From contig NZ_MBTF01000023.1 in the NCBI RefSeq assembly GCF_002013915.1, positions 496,001 to 560,000 on the forward strand: a DNA stretch of 64,000 nt, given 5' to 3'. Positions 4,345 to 35,447 of this stretch are shown in pieces (positions within the stretch are counted from its first letter, which is position 1; the number at the start of each line of letters is the position of its first letter). A model generated the notes under the pieces. That model did not search any database. It saw only the letters and a program-made list of their open reading frames with translations, and had not been told where the DNA came from. The DNA comes from Mucilaginibacter pedocola. Its GTDB lineage: Bacteria; Bacteroidota; Bacteroidia; Sphingobacteriales; Sphingobacteriaceae. Both the position numbers and the translations under genes were made by a program.

Positions 4345-6999
4345 ATGGACCTTAAAAATCAAATTTGGAACCTGGTAGCAAAGAAGCTGGCAGGCGAAGC
4401 ATCGGCAGAGGACCTGAAAGAGCTGGGAACTCTGCTTAAAAAAGACTCCGTTACTGCCAACAAGGTATACACCATTGAAGGCTGGTGGGAGGATAGCCGG
4501 GAGGCAGAACGAGATAATAGTGTTATATTATTTAACAGGATACGCAGCAGAATAGAGAGCCAACAGCCAAACGCAACATCGTTTAAGATGCCGGAAGCTG
4601 AAAGGAATAACCTAATAAATACAGGTATGATACGAAATTATTTAAAAGTTGCCTGGCGCAACTTAACCAAACATAAGGTTTATAGCGCCCTTAATGTTGG
4701 CGGTTTAGCCATAGGTATTGCCGTTACCATGCTGATAGGGCTTTGGGCATATTTTCAATATAGTTACGACCGCTTTTTGCCCGGCTACGAGCAGGTATAC
4801 CAGGTGCGCCGCAACTTTAACAGCAATGGCGATACGCTAACCTTCAGCAGTACTTCGTTAAAACTCGCCGATGCCCTTCGCGCGCAAATACCCGAAATGG
4901 AATACGTAGCCGAAACCGACCAGGTGGGCTTTCATGGTTTGCTGGCGGATAATACCAAGTTGTTTATGAAAGGCATGTTTGTAGGAGAAGATTTTCTGAA
5001 GATATTCCCGTACCCTGCCGCCAAAGGGAGTATCGGCAAAGCTCTGGATGACCCTTATAGCATTGTAATAACCGCCTCAACAGCCAAAGCTCTTTTCGGC
5101 ACCACTGATGCCATTGATAAAACAGTAAAATTTGATAACCGCGATAACCTGAAGGTAACCGCAGTTATTGATGACGTGCCCGCAAACTCTACCCTGCAGT
5201 TTAGTTACCTGGTGCCTTTTAAATATTACGAAATGAGCCAGCCTTGGGTGAAGGAGGTGCGCAATGGCAGTTTCAGCGATAACTCTTTTTGGCAGTACGT
5301 GAAACTTAAGCCAGGTGCCGATTACAACCGCGTGATGGCCAAAATACGCGATATAGAAAAGGTAGAAACCAGCAGCGTAAATGCCGTAAACTCCAACGTA
5401 ATTATCCAGCCTATGGCCGACTGGCACCTCTACGGCACCTACAAAAATGGAAAAGCCGTTGGCGGGTTCATCGAGTATGTGCGCATGTTCAGCATTATTG
5501 GCGTATTTGTGCTGGTGATAGCTTGCATCAATTTTGTGAACTTGTCTACGGCACGCTTCGAAAAGAGAGCGCGAGAAGTTGGCGTTCGCAAGGCGATCGG
5601 CTCCGACCGTAAGCAACTCATCATCCAGTTTTTGGTAGAGGCCGCTATGGTGGTAGTTGTATCTTTTGCGCTTTGCCTTTTACTGGTGCAAGCCGTGCTG
5701 CCATATTTCAATTCGCTTACGGGCACTAATATTAATATACCGGCCAATAGCCCGGCATTTTGGCTCATTACATTGGTGAGTATAGTTTTGGTATCCTTAC
5801 TGGCAGGCAGCAGGCCTGCGTTCTACCTGTCATCATTCAACCCCGTGTTAGTATTGAAAGGGAGCGTGAAGGCTGGCAAGAGTGCCGTGGTATCGCGCAA
5901 GGCTTTAGTTATTGTGCAGTTTAGTTGCTCCATTGCTTTAATTATAAGCACCATTGTGATATATAACCAGATCATGTATGCTAAAGATCGATCTACAGGT
6001 TACGAGGTAAGCAAACTGGTAACCACCAGCATGAACGAAGACCTGAGCAGAAATTATACCGCCTTAAAGAACGATTTGCTGCAAAGCGGTGCCGTGGAAT
6101 CAGTAACTACAGCTTCCAGTCCGGCTACCGGCGTTTACTCGCATGGCGATGTAGATTCGTGGCCGGGCAAATACCCCGGCGAAACGGTAGAGTTAGGGTA
6201 TATTTTCATGAGCGATGATTATTTTGAAACGCTTGGCATGAAGCTGCTTTCGGGCAGGGAGTTTATTAAGGGCTCTAAAGCTGATTCTACAAGCATCATC
6301 CTGAATGAAGCCGCCGTAAAACGCTTGCGCCTGAAAGATCCGCTTAACCAAATGATCGTAAAAAACGGCATGCAGTACCGCGTTGTTGGCGTGGTAAAAG
6401 ATGCCCTGATGGATTCGCCCTACGCTAACGCCGACCCAACTGCCTTTATAGGCGGTGGTGGCTGGAATATGATATACAAGCTGCCTGCAAAAGCAGATAC
6501 GCATGCTGCAATAGAGAAACTTACCGGCATATTTAACAAATATAACCCCGCATTCCCCTACGATTACCGCTTTGTGGATGATGACTACAACCAGAAGTTC
6601 AGCGAAGAATTATTGGTAGGCAAGCTTTCGGCAGTGTTTGCTGCACTGGCGGTTTTTGTATCGTGCCTGGGGCTGTTCGGAATGGCAACCTTTATGGCAC
6701 AGCAGCGCACCAAAGAAATAGGCGTACGCAAAGTGCTTGGCGCAAGCGTTACGCAGCTTTGGGCAATGTTATCTAAGGATTTCCTGGTGTTGGTAATAGT
6801 GAGCTGCGTGGTGGCATCGCCCATTGCCTGGTGGTTTTTAGAAGGCTGGCTGCAAAAATATACCTACCGCATTAGCATAGGCCCCGGCGTGTTTTTACTT
6901 GCCGCCGCATCGGCCGTTGTCATAGCTATTTTAACGGTAAGTTACCAAAGCATTAAAGCCGCACTGAGCAACCCGGTGAGGAGTTTACGGAGCGAGTAA
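4345..6999 (+). CDS. FtsX/MacB-type ABC permease with FecR-like N-terminal extension
   Basis: Paralogue of the preceding permease with the same two PCD/FtsX halves (signatures STARFEKRAREVGVRKAIGS and KEIGVRKVLGAS). Unlike it, the ORF begins with about 94 extra residues before MIRNYLKVAWRNL (which would start at 4627). The extension is soluble and helical, with IWNLVAKKLAGEASAEDLKEL near residues 7-27, which resembles the cytoplasmic N-terminus of FecR-type anti-sigma proteins (recognition from memory of motif style, not a search). The ATG at 4345 sits 21 bases after the previous stop, which fits a translated start; a second start at 4627 giving a normal-length permease cannot be excluded. 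Probably one operon with the gene before it. Confidence 0.85.
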   Translation: MDLKNQIWNLVAKKLAGEASAEDLKELGTLLKKDSVTANKVYTIEGWWEDSREAERDNSVILFNRIRSRIESQQPNATSFKMPEAERNNLINTGMIRNYLKVAWRNLTKHKVYSALNVGGLAIGIAVTMLIGLWAYFQYSYDRFLPGYEQVYQVRRNFNSNGDTLTFSSTSLKLADALRAQIPEMEYVAETDQVGFHGLLADNTKLFMKGMFVGEDFLKIFPYPAAKGSIGKALDDPYSIVITASTAKALFGTTDAIDKTVKFDNRDNLKVTAVIDDVPANSTLQFSYLVPFKYYEMSQPWVKEVRNGSFSDNSFWQYVKLKPGADYNRVMAKIRDIEKVETSSVNAVNSNVIIQPMADWHLYGTYKNGKAVGGFIEYVRMFSIIGVFVLVIACINFVNLSTARFEKRAREVGVRKAIGSDRKQLIIQFLVEAAMVVVVSFALCLLLVQAVLPYFNSLTGTNINIPANSPAFWLITLVSIVLVSLLAGSRPAFYLSSFNPVLVLKGSVKAGKSAVVSRKALVIVQFSCSIALIISTIVIYNQIMYAKDRSTGYEVSKLVTTSMNEDLSRNYTALKNDLLQSGAVESVTTASSPATGVYSHGDVDSWPGKYPGETVELGYIFMSDDYFETLGMKLLSGREFIKGSKADSTSIILNEAAVKRLRLKDPLNQMIVKNGMQYRVVGVVKDALMDSPYANADPTAFIGGGGWNMIYKLPAKADTHAAIEKLTGIFNKYNPAFPYDYRFVDDDYNQKFSEELLVGKLSAVFAALAVFVSCLGLFGMATFMAQQRTKEIGVRKVLGASVTQLWAMLSKDFLVLVIVSCVVASPIAWWFLEGWLQKYTYRISIGPGVFLLAAASAVVIAILTVSYQSIKAALSNPVRSLRSE

Positions 7000-30809: not shown

Positions 30810-30856
30810 TTTGATATACGAAATCTATCGTAGATATTTGTACGAAGGGATTCGTA
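30810..30856 (+). promoter_or_regulatory. blaI-type promoter with two tandem operator palindromes
   Basis: A -33 TTTG (30810-30813) and a -7-like GATATTTG (30833-30840) are 19 bases apart, the usual Bacteroidota spacing. Two 16-base palindromes surround the -7 element: TACGA-N6-TCGTA at 30817-30832, filling the spacer, and TACGAA-N4-TTCGTA at 30841-30856, right after it. Their centres are 24 bases apart. TAC...GTA half-sites are typical of BlaI/MecI operators, so this is very probably the autoregulatory site of the repressor encoded from 30868. Confidence 0.7.
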
Positions 30857-30867
30857 ATAAGGATAAA

Positions 30868-31242
30868 ATGGAACTGAAACCAACAGAAAGCGAGCTGGAA
30901 ATTTTACAGGTGATCTGGAAAAAGGGCGAGTGTACCGTTCGCGAGGTGCACGAAGAACTCATTAAAAGCAAAGAATCGGGTTATACCACTACCCTGAAAC
31001 TGATGCAGATAATGCACGAAAAAGGTTTGGTAGAGCGTAACACCAATGCCAAAACACACCTGTACAAAGCGGTAATTACCCAGCGCGAGGCGCAGAAGGG
31101 CGCGTTGGATAAGATCATATCCACCGTGTTCAAGGGCTCTACCAGCGACTTGGTGATACAGGCCCTTGGCCAGCATCGCGCCTCTAAGGATGAGATAGAC
31201 GCCATTAAAGATTACTTGAAGCAGTTTGAAGGTAGAGAATAG
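30868..31242 (+). CDS. BlaI/MecI/CopY family transcriptional repressor
   Basis: 124 residues from the ATG at 30868; the longer frame from 30811 would run through the operator palindromes and is rejected. Winged helix domain residues about 5-72 (TESELEILQVIWKKGECTVREVHEEL, then YTTTLKLMQIMHEKGL) and a C-terminal dimerisation helix region. Such repressors are cleaved or released by a cognate M56 metallopeptidase; that partner follows 119 bases downstream. Self-regulation is likely through the two palindromes. Confidence 0.93.
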   Translation: MELKPTESELEILQVIWKKGECTVREVHEELIKSKESGYTTTLKLMQIMHEKGLVERNTNAKTHLYKAVITQREAQKGALDKIISTVFKGSTSDLVIQALGQHRASKDEIDAIKDYLKQFEGRE

Positions 31243-31361: not shown

Positions 31362-33446
31362 ATGCAAAGCTTGTTGTATAACATCAGCCAGGTTTTAGGT
31401 ATCGCCATTCTGCACTCGTTGTGGCAGGGTTTGTTGGTTTGGTTTCTGTTGCGTATAGCCTTCGGGGCCATGCCGCTGCTGCCTGCCGCTAAAAAATATA
31501 ACGTGGCTTTACTAGCCATGTTCGGTATTGCTGCCTGGTTTATGGTTACCTTGTTTAAAGAAGCAAGTAATTTTAACTGGCACCCGGTGAATACAACAGG
31601 TGCAGGCTTTGTACAGCAGCCCGGGCTGGTTAACCAGCTATCGCCCTTTACAGCACAGGCCGACAGGTATTACTATGTTATTGAAGGTTATTTGCCCTAC
31701 ATTTCTATCCTTTATATAGCAGGTTTAGTGGTGAACCTGCTTAAACTGAGCTATTGCCGGCTAAAGCTGCGCCAAATAAAAAAAGCGCTGTTGCCTGCCG
31801 CCCAATTGCAATGGCTAACCGAAGAATTTGCAGCCAAACTTAATATCAGCCGCTATGTGCGCGTACATTTTAGCGAGTTGGTTGATGTTCCCTGCATGTT
31901 GGGGTATTTGAAACCTATTATCCTTTTACCAATTTCCCTATCTGCTAACCTCACCGTTGCCGAAACGGAGGCTATTTTACTGCACGAACTCGCCCATATT
32001 AAACGGAATGATTATTTGGTGAACCTGCTGCAGCAGGTAATAAATTCCTTATTGTTCTTTAATCCTTTTGCCCAAATAATAAACCGTTTAATAAGCGTTG
32101 AGCGCGAGAACTGCTGCGACGACCTGGTGGTGCAAACCACCAATAACCCGTTGGTTTACGCCCGTGCATTGCTCAAGTTAGAAGAAAGCAGGCATGCAAA
32201 CCTGCAGTTTGCCCTTGCGGCGAGCACCAACAAAAATGTTTTACTAACCAGAATTGAACGCATCATGAAAACTCAACAAAAAATAGGCAATATACGCCAC
32301 CTGGTGCTTGCCATATTACTTTTAGCCGGCAGCTTAAGCAGCATTGCCTGGCTAAACCCCGAAATTAAGAACGGTAAAGTAACCGTAAAAGCAGTAAAAC
32401 CTGCCGAAGTAATTGATAACCTGAATACCCTTTTTGCCGATACTACCCGTAAAAAAGCCGCTAAAGCCAAACCCGCTAAAAAGGCCGTTGCCGCAAACAA
32501 AACAAAAACCTACGTAAACGACGAAGGTATCCACTACAATTTTAACGACCCCGAGCTTGACCGCCTGAGCGCCGACGTACAAAAACAGGCCGACGTAATA
32601 AACAAATACTACAACAGTGCCGAGTTTAAGGCTATATCTGCCGACCTGGAAAAACGCGGCAAAGAGATAGGCGATTTTTACGCCAAACCCGAACTAACAA
32701 GTTTAAGCGAGAAGATGGGTAAGCTGGGCGAGGAGTTCTCGAAAAAATACGGCAACAACCCCGATGCTGAGAAGTACAGCCAGCAAATGGGCGAATTAGG
32801 CAAGAAGATGGGCGATTATTACAACTCATCGGCATTTAAAGATATGAACAACGCCCTGAGGAAGAAATACAACATCACCAGCGACTATAACGACAGCCGC
32901 GACGAGAACTACAAAAAATACCAGGACGAGTTGCACACTAAAATACCTGCTGATGTGCAGCAGTACAGCGAAACCATGCGCGCCTTGGGCGAAAAAATGC
33001 GCAGCTTTTATCAATCTGCAGATTATGTGGCCGCGCGCGACCAAATGAAACTGATGGGAGATAGCATGCGCAAGGCTTATAACAACCCTGCCATGAAGCA
33101 GCAGCAGGAAGAGATGCGTAAGCTCAGCCAAAAAATGCACGACTATACCAAAAGCCCTGAGCTTGCCCGTGCCAAAAAAGAGTTGAAAGAAGCTTCAGCA
33201 CGCTTAAAGGCCTATACCAAAACCCCCGCCTTCGAGAAAAAGATGAAGGAATACCGCAAGCAAATGAAGGCTTACAATTGGGATAATAACTTCAAGTTCG
33301 ACTACGATAACGACAATAACAATAATAACGACAATGATAACGACAGCAATGATAGTGCTGAGCGTATAAAAAAGGAAATAAAAGAAGCCCGTAAAGCCGC
33401 AGAAGAAGCCGCTAAAGAAGCGCCCGCGGAGCCGGTGAAGCCGTAA
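31362..33446 (+). CDS. M56 family metallopeptidase (BlaR1-like) with 23-residue-repeat tail
   Basis: 694 residues. Four TM segments: about 8-30, 38-58, 105-125 and 312-332. The zinc motif HELAH (His208-Glu209-x-x-His212) and the following SVERENCCDD block, which carries the third ligand, are intact. BlaR1-type proteins sense a periplasmic signal and cleave a BlaI repressor in the cytoplasm. In place of a penicillin-binding or TonB C-terminus, residues about 417-638 consist of some nine helical units of 23 residues (Y-x-S/P...M-x-x-L-G-x-K-M-x-x-Y), highly charged, followed by an Asn/Asp-rich run and a Lys/Glu/Ala tail. The upstream BlaI gene is its partner. The ligand for the repeat tail is unknown. 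Confidence 0.9.
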   Translation: MQSLLYNISQVLGIAILHSLWQGLLVWFLLRIAFGAMPLLPAAKKYNVALLAMFGIAAWFMVTLFKEASNFNWHPVNTTGAGFVQQPGLVNQLSPFTAQADRYYYVIEGYLPYISILYIAGLVVNLLKLSYCRLKLRQIKKALLPAAQLQWLTEEFAAKLNISRYVRVHFSELVDVPCMLGYLKPIILLPISLSANLTVAETEAILLHELAHIKRNDYLVNLLQQVINSLLFFNPFAQIINRLISVERENCCDDLVVQTTNNPLVYARALLKLEESRHANLQFALAASTNKNVLLTRIERIMKTQQKIGNIRHLVLAILLLAGSLSSIAWLNPEIKNGKVTVKAVKPAEVIDNLNTLFADTTRKKAAKAKPAKKAVAANKTKTYVNDEGIHYNFNDPELDRLSADVQKQADVINKYYNSAEFKAISADLEKRGKEIGDFYAKPELTSLSEKMGKLGEEFSKKYGNNPDAEKYSQQMGELGKKMGDYYNSSAFKDMNNALRKKYNITSDYNDSRDENYKKYQDELHTKIPADVQQYSETMRALGEKMRSFYQSADYVAARDQMKLMGDSMRKAYNNPAMKQQQEEMRKLSQKMHDYTKSPELARAKKELKEASARLKAYTKTPAFEKKMKEYRKQMKAYNWDNNFKFDYDNDNNNNNDNDNDSNDSAERIKKEIKEARKAAEEAAKEAPAEPVKP

Positions 33447-33605
33447 GGCAGTTAGCAGTGGGCAGTTTGCAGTAAGCAGTTGCCAGTTATCGGTTCGCAG
33501 TTTGCGGAGAGTAGAAGCAGTTTACTGCTACATATTCTGTAAACTGCGAACCGTTATTGCATATAGCATAGTAACTGCGGAACTGCCCACCGCAAACCGC
33601 AAACT
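33447..33605. repeat. GCAGTTTGC-family inverted repeat
   Basis: Left part: CAGTTTGCAGTAAGCAGTTGCCAGTTATCGGTTCGCAGTTTGCGG. Right part: GTAAACTGCGAACCGTT, AACTGCGGAACTGCCC, CCGCAAACCGCAAACTG. The two halves are complementary in opposite order. Shorter copies: 10190-10216 and 36384-36426. Confidence 0.65.
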
Positions 33606-33692
33606 GAAATTAGCTATTTTTTTTAGCAAAATCTTTTCGATAAACATCCTTTTCGTAATTTAGTGCTTTCAAAAAAACAGAAAGCGCTTGTT

Positions 33693-35447
33693 ATGCTGCA
33701 GAAGCTCACTATACAAAATTACGCACTGATAGATAACCTCGAGATCAAGTTCGATAAGGGCCTAAACATCCTTACGGGCGAGACCGGGGCGGGTAAATCC
33801 ATTATTTTGGGGGCGCTATCGCTGATATTGGGGCAGCGTGCCGAGAGCAAATACTTCTTCAATCAGCAAAAAAAATGTGTGATAGAAGGCTCTTTTAAAA
33901 TAACCGGCTTTAAACTTAAAAGCTTTTTTGAAGAGCACGACCTGGACCATGAGGACGAAACAGTTCTGCGCCGCGAAATATCGAGCGATGGCAAAAGCCG
34001 CGCTTTTATAAACGATACACCGGTAAATCTTACCCTCCTGAAACAGTTCGGCGAGAAGCTGATCGATATCCACTCGCAGCATGCCACACAGGAAATAAAC
34101 GACCCCGATTTTCAGTTATTGGTGGTTGATGGCGTTGCTGACCATCAGCCACTGCTTACCGAGTACCAAACCAAATATAAGGCTTACCGTAAGTCGCTTA
34201 CCCAGCTACAGCAACTTATCGAACAAAACGATAAAGCTAAAGCCGACCTGGACTACTTCCAGTTCCAGTTTGATGAATTGGATAAGGCAGCCCTTGCCGG
34301 CGATGAGCAGGAGGCGTTGGAGCGCGAGCTAAACACGTTAAACAATGCCGAGGAAATAAAACGCAACTTGCTTGGCGCACACTACCTCATGCACGAGGGC
34401 GAAACATCGGCCATTATACAACTCCGCGAGGCCGGGCAGCAATTATCATCGGTAGAGAAATTTACGCCCGAAGTTGAAGAACTACACGAGCGCCTCAAGA
34501 GCACATTGATAGAACTGAAAGACATTGCCGCCGAAATAGAAACCATAGAGCAGCGCACCTTTACCAACGAAGCCCGCGCCGAGGAAGTGAACACCCGCCT
34601 GAGCCTGTTATACAACCTGCAAAAAAAGCACAGAGTAAGCACTAACGACGAACTATTGGCCATACAAGCCGACCTGTCTGAGAAGATAGCGCAGGCCGTT
34701 TTTGGTGATGAAGCGGTAGAAAAACTGCAAAAGCAAATAGATGCTGCCAAACAGGAACTGGAAAAATTAGCTGCCAAACTATCTGCCAATCGCAAAAAGG
34801 CCATCCCTGTTATTACTAAGAAAGTGCTGGATAACCTGGCAGAAATGGGGATGGGGAATTCGGCGATGGAGATAGATCAGGTAGTGAGGGAGGCGGTAAG
34901 TCCGCAAGTCGGGAAAGACGCTTCGTCTGCGGACTTTCGGACTTCCGGACTTTCGGACCATCTTACAAAGACTGGTACCGATAACATTCACTTCCTTTTC
35001 TCAGCTAACAAGGGGCATGCTTTGGCGGATATGAGCAAGGTGGTATCGGGCGGTGAGTTGAGCAGGCTGATGCTCAGCATAAAATCTATCATTGCAGAAT
35101 ACACTGCTTTGCCAACTATTATTTTCGATGAGATAGATACGGGGGTAAGCGGCGAAGTAGCTAACAAGGTAGGGCAGGTGATGGAGCGCCTGGCGCAAAA
35201 CCTGCAAGTGATTACCATAACCCACCTGCCGCAAATTGCCGGTAAAGGCAAAAGCCATTATTTTGTTTTTAAAGACCATAGCGACGCCGTTACCAAAACC
35301 CAGATAAGAAAACTAACCAACGAAGAACGCGTGCGCGAAATTGCCAAAATGCTAAGCGGCGATAAGCCCGGCGAAAGTGCTTTACAAAACGCAAGGGAAT
35401 TGTTGGGGCAACCTAATCCGCTAAGCGGGGAGTTGGACCTGCGGTAG
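33693..35447 (+). CDS. recN: DNA repair protein RecN (SMC-like ATPase)
   Basis: 584 residues from the ATG at 33693 (MLQKLTIQNYALIDNLEIKF); an upstream GTG at 33663 is unlikely. Walker A GETGAGKSIILGAL near residue 32, long coiled coil about 160-360, ABC signature VSGGELSRLMLSIK near 453 and Walker B TIIFDEIDTGVSGE. It acts in the cytoplasm in double-strand break repair. Odd feature: about 20-25 residues near 403-425 (S-P-Q-V-G-K-D-A-S-S... to ...G-L-S-D-H) have no place in the usual RecN alignment and coincide with a palindromic repeat at 34899-34957. The reading frame stays open and both ATPase halves are intact. Confidence 0.96.
   Translation: MLQKLTIQNYALIDNLEIKFDKGLNILTGETGAGKSIILGALSLILGQRAESKYFFNQQKKCVIEGSFKITGFKLKSFFEEHDLDHEDETVLRREISSDGKSRAFINDTPVNLTLLKQFGEKLIDIHSQHATQEINDPDFQLLVVDGVADHQPLLTEYQTKYKAYRKSLTQLQQLIEQNDKAKADLDYFQFQFDELDKAALAGDEQEALERELNTLNNAEEIKRNLLGAHYLMHEGETSAIIQLREAGQQLSSVEKFTPEVEELHERLKSTLIELKDIAAEIETIEQRTFTNEARAEEVNTRLSLLYNLQKKHRVSTNDELLAIQADLSEKIAQAVFGDEAVEKLQKQIDAAKQELEKLAAKLSANRKKAIPVITKKVLDNLAEMGMGNSAMEIDQVVREAVSPQVGKDASSADFRTSGLSDHLTKTGTDNIHFLFSANKGHALADMSKVVSGGELSRLMLSIKSIIAEYTALPTIIFDEIDTGVSGEVANKVGQVMERLAQNLQVITITHLPQIAGKGKSHYFVFKDHSDAVTKTQIRKLTNEERVREIAKMLSGDKPGESALQNARELLGQPNPLSGELDLR
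34899..34957. repeat. Palindromic repeat inserted in frame within recN
   Basis: AGTCCGCA (34899-34906) and TGCGGACT (34928-34935) are perfect inverted arms, with an inner GACG-CTT-CGTC hairpin; then TTTCGGACT, TCCGGACTTTCGGAC units follow. This is the same AAGTCxxxAAGTC / TTCGGACT word set as the intergenic repeats at 22037 and 50563. It lies just ahead of the second ATPase half of recN. Confidence 0.7.

Follow-up and report, generated by a model that had tools for sequence, protein, structure and literature searches.

A putative autoregulated BlaI/BlaR1-type module with a predicted helical rod in place of the penicillin-binding sensor in Mucilaginibacter pedocola and its relatives

Introduction

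The 64,000-nucleotide stretch of Mucilaginibacter pedocola DNA analyzed here (the window) contains a repressor gene and a membrane-protease gene that we interpret, with a probability of roughly 0.62, as an autoregulated antirepressor module of the BlaI/BlaR1 type in which a periplasmic helical rod has taken the place of the penicillin-binding sensor. The assignment to the BlaI/BlaR1 type is well supported, and a helical-rod input domain lying outside Pfam is supported; the evidence further suggests that the rod reports on something in the cell envelope and not on an antibiotic.

A self-regulating repressor/protease pair of this kind switches on penicillin resistance in Staphylococcus. Receptors of the BlaR1 type are known for drug sensing, with one characterized exception: cyanobacterial PetP/PetR, a BlaR1-like protease with a BlaI-like regulator, responds to copper, so such pairs also serve non-beta-lactam signals (PMC7896320). 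PetP/PetR is copper-dependent and sits beside plastocyanin/cytochrome c6 genes, whereas no such genes lie next to the module described here. The module, carried by soil bacteria of the genus Mucilaginibacter and their relatives, occurs widely within a single bacterial family, with operator, repressor, protease and rod all conserved; its paired operator, conserved throughout the genus and in much of this family, is new here. It is a clear case of a BlaI/M56 pair in which a helical rod has been exchanged for the ligand domain, and its evolution follows a visible rule: the length of helices changes by whole turns, and the two arms of the rod change together. If the rod does read the envelope, the module would represent a new coupling of envelope state to transcription in Bacteroidota.

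Results

The membrane peptidase

The protease gene and the parts of its product up to the end of the membrane domain are as follows.

31362-33446, + strand: M56 (BlaR1-type) membrane metallopeptidase with repeat tail, an ORF of 694 aa
31413-32258 (aa 18-299), + strand: Peptidase_M56 domain (Pfam PF05569, E 8.5e-33)
31983-31997 (aa 208-212), + strand: HELAH zinc motif, inside the Peptidase_M56 domain
32208-32222 (aa 283-287), + strand: predicted self-cleavage loop F-A-L-A|A, from profile alignment to 8exs, where it falls on L-S-H-S|F of S. aureus BlaR1; conserved across loci
32292-32354 (aa 311-331), + strand: fourth transmembrane helix (TM4), from hydropathy and an AlphaFold helix at 311-331

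Residues 1-331 comprise four membrane helices and the zinc site. An earlier note on the window had described intact HELAH and RENCCDD motifs and a preceding BlaI repressor gene, and all three are in place (Peptidase_M56 E 8.5e-33; repressor at 30868-31242, Penicillinase_R E 1.5e-27). The best Foldseek matches of the protein are the cryo-EM structures of Staphylococcus aureus BlaR1 (8ext/8exs/8exq, E 2.8e-4 to 8.1e-4), and its profile match to 8exs spans positions 24-323. Judged by sequence and by this fold match, the protein is of BlaR1 membrane-peptidase architecture. The NCBIfam model blaR1_generic matches at aa 26-323 only, with 92.6 bits against a cut-off of 400; the C-terminal penicillin-binding sensor domain of BlaR1 is absent and the tail consists of repeats. 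Between TM4 and the repeats runs a linker (aa 333-395) that is mostly disordered in the AlphaFold2 model. The nearest named relative, one of two named Mucilaginibacter relatives found in a single-protein search, is from Mucilaginibacter psychrotolerans, with 69% identity in the best segment.

The module resembles S. aureus BlaR1/BlaI (and MecR1/MecI) in its M56 gluzincin, its matching membrane architecture, its adjacent BlaI repressor, the alignment of its pre-TM4 loop with the self-cleavage loop, and palindromic operators at the promoter (PMC9834060). It departs from them in having the rod tail in place of the penicillin-binding sensor, in having Ala instead of Phe at both predicted cleavage sites, and in having no beta-lactamase or PBP gene under its operator.

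Repressor, operators and probable promoter

Upstream of the protease gene lie the repressor gene and its control region.

30810-30840, + strand: probable Bacteroidota promoter core with two TTTG elements (30810-30813 and 30837-30840), from sequence; the second, -7-like element lies between the operators
30817-30832, no strand assigned: operator palindrome 1, TACGAaatctaTCGTA, conserved across the genus; putative BlaI site
30841-30856, no strand assigned: operator palindrome 2, TACGAagggatTCGTA, starting 24 bp from palindrome 1; putative BlaI site
30868-31242, + strand: blaI-type repressor of 124 aa (Pfam Penicillinase_R PF03965, E 1.5e-27; phmmer matches to MecI/BlaI structures; conserved N terminus)
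31150-31164, + strand: predicted repressor cleavage site L-V-I-Q|A, from alignment to L-V-L-N|F of S. aureus BlaI/MecI; conserved in family loci

The repressor starts at the conserved ATG at 30868 (MELKPTESE) and not at the TTG at 30811 given in a mechanical ORF list. Directly upstream of blaI are two 16-bp palindromes of the form TACGAN6TCGTA, whose starts lie 24 bp apart; of 64 genus loci scored, 61 keep this spacing. The pair adjoins blaI in nearly all of the 68 real genus loci examined and was found in 110/201 family genomes and 26/395 phylum genomes, almost invariably as a single pair per genome; with the reversed pattern as control, a pair occurred in just one genome of the family sample. 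We infer that BlaI binds both palindromes.

The promoter consensus of Bacteroidota is TTTG/TAnnTTTG. One TTTG precedes palindrome 1 and the other lies between the palindromes, at a position where relatives read TACATTTG, and by comparison with the consensus this pair is the probable promoter core. Bound BlaI should therefore block transcription.

In most genomes no second paired operator was found, so that, as far as paired operators show, the module seems to act mainly on itself. Single TACGAN6TCGTA sites were considered as a wider regulon and rejected: in most of the eight genomes compared they are no more enriched than the reversed control, and the other exact match in the window (24651) lies inside a kinase gene. 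A second operator pair in one genome (G036; L208, around 5000) is located just before what we take to be parC and faces what appears to be a gene for a secreted NTF2-like protein, both genes being named by eye. In a genome of another family (G669; L195 and L196), two paired operators stand at genes without a nearby BlaI, one of them a probable TonB-type receptor.

Matching predicted cleavage sites

S. aureus BlaR1 cleaves itself at LSHS|F (Ser283|Phe284), and S. aureus BlaI/MecI is cut at LVLN|F (Asn101|Phe102) (PMC9834060). The predicted P1' residue is Ala in both the M56 loop and BlaI here, as it is Phe in both in S. aureus, and the matching Ala at both P1' sites is found in most loci carrying the module; most relatives read LALA|A in the self-cleavage loop, where the protein in the window reads FALA|A. 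This match lends indirect support to the prediction that the M56 protease still cuts its BlaI partner. Two other pairs of the same genome read differently: L006 seemingly has Phe in both positions, and L002 has Phe in the loop versus Leu in BlaI.

The proposed mechanism is as follows. BlaI on the two palindromes flanking the promoter core would keep the operon repressed. A signal on the rod would pass via TM4 to the cytoplasmic protease, by analogy with BlaR1, and the protease would then cut BlaI at LVIQ|A, freeing transcription of blaI and the M56 gene. Beyond its own level, the module would reach at most recN, by read-through.

Downstream genes

33447-33662, + strand: intergenic stretch from the M56 stop to recN, whose very strong inverted repeat has a computed RNA folding energy of -78.9 kcal/mol (z -7.2)
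33693-35447, + strand: recN, the next gene in most genus loci examined

The inverted repeat is composed of GCAGTTTGC-like intergenic repeats; a simple terminator match was not found in it, and it may halt transcription ahead of recN. The neighbors of the module, with names assigned by eye, are presumably recN, fabI, coaBC and DUF4835-like genes. Several other genera have a gene other than recN behind the M56 gene, and the conserved unit is therefore operator, blaI and M56. For the same reason, and given the strong inverted repeat that separates it from the M56 gene here, recN was rejected as the regulated output. That the only evident target is the module's own operon would be unusual for a sensor and speaks against the reading adopted here.

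The repeat tail

32550-33284 (aa 397-641), + strand: helical rod of 23-residue units with eleven predicted helices (autocorrelation, AlphaFold2)
32817-32933 (aa 486-524), + strand: conserved tip region with loop 503-514, in the middle of two length-matched arms (column conservation)
33285-33356 (aa 642-665), + strand: Asn/Asp-rich low-complexity run, seen in the sequence, with low model confidence and poor conservation

The 245 residues of the tail after TM4 are built of 23-residue units. Its autocorrelation peaks at lag 23 (z = 7.6), with z = 5.6 at lag 46, against a highest z of 4.0 at any lag in 500 shuffles. The units occupy aa 397-419, 420-442, 443-466 (24 aa), 467-489, 490-529 (interrupted), 530-552, 553-575, 576-598 and 599-621, followed by a partial unit at 622-641. 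The nine units of the earlier note, one of 24 residues and one interrupted, are thus borne out, as is the Asn/Asp run behind them (aa 642-665); the array it had placed at 417-638 is real, although its start was given about 20 residues too late (true start aa 397).

No family in Pfam, NCBIfam or PADLOC matches the tail. A known Pfam/InterPro domain with a defined ligand over the repeats, which the earlier note had named as evidence against its reading, thus did not appear in Pfam or NCBIfam, and weak matches to Uds1, exonuclease VII and IFT57, all under the cut-off, were dismissed as coiled-coil noise. A search of the whole host genome with the tail returned no second copy beyond the M56 protein at 31362-33446, and no publication on the tail was found in the open-licence literature. 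Among relatives, mean identity to the protein in the window is 43% for the rod versus 55% for the M56 part; the tail is conserved as a unit, with a poorly conserved very C-terminal end.

A predicted two-armed rod

AlphaFold2, run on the M56 protein with an alignment of 48 relatives, places helices at aa 397-417, 420-440, 443-464, 467-487, 490-502, 515-527, 530-550, 553-573, 576-596, 599-619 and 622-641. The model thus has eleven helices, mostly of about 21 residues and separated by two-residue breaks, on either side of the middle loop 503-514. The pLDDT of the rod helices is about 92-95 and is weakest around that loop; the tail modeled alone gives identical helices at a pLDDT of 92.4 with a pTM of only 0.60. 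The long periplasmic rod or filament of the earlier note is accordingly retained as a long, predicted non-cytoplasmic rod, and nothing supports a filament; the physical or polymeric signal proposed there is a conjecture.

Arm lengths were counted in 62 tails with a recognizable tip, some of which are one gene present as two loci. Fifty-seven of them measure 105-107 residues from the first unit to the tip and 91-94 from the tip to the last unit. The remaining five have arms of 129/116 or 152/139, that is, +23/+23 or +46/+46, with equal numbers of units added to both arms. Two further genomes fit the one-unit class, with the C arm measured and the N arm judged by eye. The earlier note had asked whether repeat number varies beside BlaI: it does, in whole units. 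In a tree of the peptidase part, the expansion in G011 falls in a clade separate from those in G096, G053 and G115, which implies at least two and probably three paired arm changes. By a rough count, the balance of added units alone has a chance of about one in ten, which for three or so events is modest as statistics; that none of the 62 tails has unbalanced arms adds weight to the paired-arm reading.

Long antiparallel helical hairpins make up most of the best PDB matches to the rod model, none of these matches being significant. Because of these matches, and because the arms change length in pairs, an antiparallel hairpin is favored: AlphaFold2 predicts, and the paired changes support, a rod whose two opposed arms meet at the tip loop 503-514. 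An arm of about 106 helical residues would measure roughly 16 nm, and peptidoglycan or structures further out could be within reach. The rod may be a length-tuned periplasmic ruler, a two-armed strut growing by unit pairs whose conserved tip touches a fixed partner at a set distance from the inner membrane (peptidoglycan or outer membrane), in which case the protease would read the spacing or integrity of the envelope and not a small molecule; we regard this specific version as quite unlikely.

The repeats might instead be a passive coiled-coil spacer drifting in length, with the extracellular loops or the TM bundle doing the sensing. Variation of unit number and unit length among genera, the poorly conserved extreme C-terminal end and the existence of modules without repeats would fit such a spacer. 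Within the genus, however, each arm of the rod varies by no more than about two residues. The tip (aa 486-524) is conserved above the rod average, its columns exceeding the mean of the tail in a permutation test (p 0.004), and we consider a mere spacer improbable.

Comparison with known helical folds

The long antiparallel hairpins that typically match the rod model best include SH3BP5, Smc arms, PI3K iSH2, chemoreceptor cytoplasmic domains and the coiled coils of PcsB/EnvC/RipC. No match reaches E 1e-3, rmsd is mostly 10-25 A and there is no common sequence, so the arrangement is shared but a relationship is not demonstrated. With VIA-align, the best Z against solved hairpin folds is 10.3 at an rmsd of 21 A, in the range expected for long helices. 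The fold search of the tail thus returned generic long helices only, and the absence of a better match does not prove a new fold.

A different kinship is hinted at by weak profile matches to apolipoprotein A-I (best E 0.008), whose 22-residue repeats are amphipathic; the units could likewise be lipid-binding helices sensing membrane or lipid stress. A Pro stands near every unit start, and some helices have significant helical hydrophobic moments. De novo designed helical proteins nevertheless score as well or better in the same comparison, the majority of the helices are weakly hydrophobic with moments that do not stand out, and the 23-residue period with length-matched arms suggests helix-helix packing; we hold lipid sensing of this kind to be very unlikely.

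Unit spacings and apparent whole-turn steps

Near-perfect arrays of units, such as FNSPEWKKQMEAMKKQGEEMKKQ, occur in paralogues and in other genera, and both unit number and unit length vary between genera. Across the family, unit spacings are 23 (120 cases), 20 (31), 16 (15), 27 (3) and 37 (2), besides a single spacing of 24 and four of 39-40, some or all of the latter being pairs of 20-residue units. Less the two-residue break, the main spacings correspond to 21, 18, 14, 25 and 35 residues, or about 6, 5, 4, 7 and 10 helical turns. The regularity of the set 16, 20, 23, 27 and 37 exceeds that of random sets (p 0.004, with the helical pitch picked from four values), which fits helices linked by short breaks and changing in length only by whole turns.

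Distribution and variants of the module

Some match to the protein was found in 119/120 genomes of the genus, and a near-whole-protein match in about two thirds. The tail profile matched at E 1e-30 or better in 106/149 genus genomes; weaker, repeat-based matches occur elsewhere in the family, in 10 of 25 sampled genera in all, and a phylum-wide search gave just a few weak matches outside the family. In nearly every genus locus examined, the paired operator is followed by blaI and by one or two M56 copies, and then usually by recN. Two M56 genes stand in tandem behind one BlaI in L051, L052, L053, L054, L066, L073, L079, L081, L085 and L210; in such loci the first copy carries near-perfect repeat arrays and the second a tip-type rod. 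In two loci the M56 cluster also holds a stand-alone gene for TM4, linker and rod without a peptidase (L073, 6209-7306; L210, ORF at 4505), whose product resembles the C-terminal fragment of BlaR1 self-cleavage. A diverged stand-alone rod gene is seen in L074 (ORF at 4621), and an apparent free-standing tail in G050 proved to be an M56 gene interrupted by the contig end.

These arrangements bear on whether the rod is the output of the circuit, that is, whether the module raises the dose of a membrane-anchored periplasmic strut under envelope disturbance while the protease only sets the amount. A paired operator that is normally at this operon alone, the stand-alone TM4-linker-rod genes of two genomes (L073, L210) and operons with two M56 copies, different rods and one BlaI all agree with a strut as output. 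Stand-alone rods are rare, though, with 2 clear cases among some 150 genomes of the genus, and nearly every rod forms part of an M56 protein whose active site is intact; we hold the strut-as-output explanation to be unlikely and keep to the rod as an input domain.

Two loci (L207 and L209) in a further family, which also includes L191-L193 and which we guess to be Cytophagales-like, keep operator, BlaI and M56 and have no repeats. The earlier note had held that loss of the tail with BlaI pairing kept would speak against its proposal; these loci partly present that situation, which does not negate the signaling module. They indicate instead that the rod is a swappable input domain and that pairing with BlaI is independent of it. 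The repeats appear as one of several interchangeable periplasmic domains. In L191-L193 the same operator, BlaI and M56 go with a different helical tail, EPKMKEFEQKMKEWQ.

The host genome of 7.0 Mb has eight M56 genes, the one in the window among them. Three others (L002, L003 and L005) likewise combine an M56 domain with lineage-specific C-terminal tails, and L002 also has a BlaI, but their tails are unrelated to the rod and their cleavage-loop residues are different. The protein of L005 (997-3276, contig C2) carries another repeat tail of about 28-29 residues per unit (KALGITPEYLxSFKxAGY) that belongs to no Pfam family, and the M56 tail of L003 (contig C23, 305507-306316) ends in a heptad-like DQxQA/RKDQEQA run.
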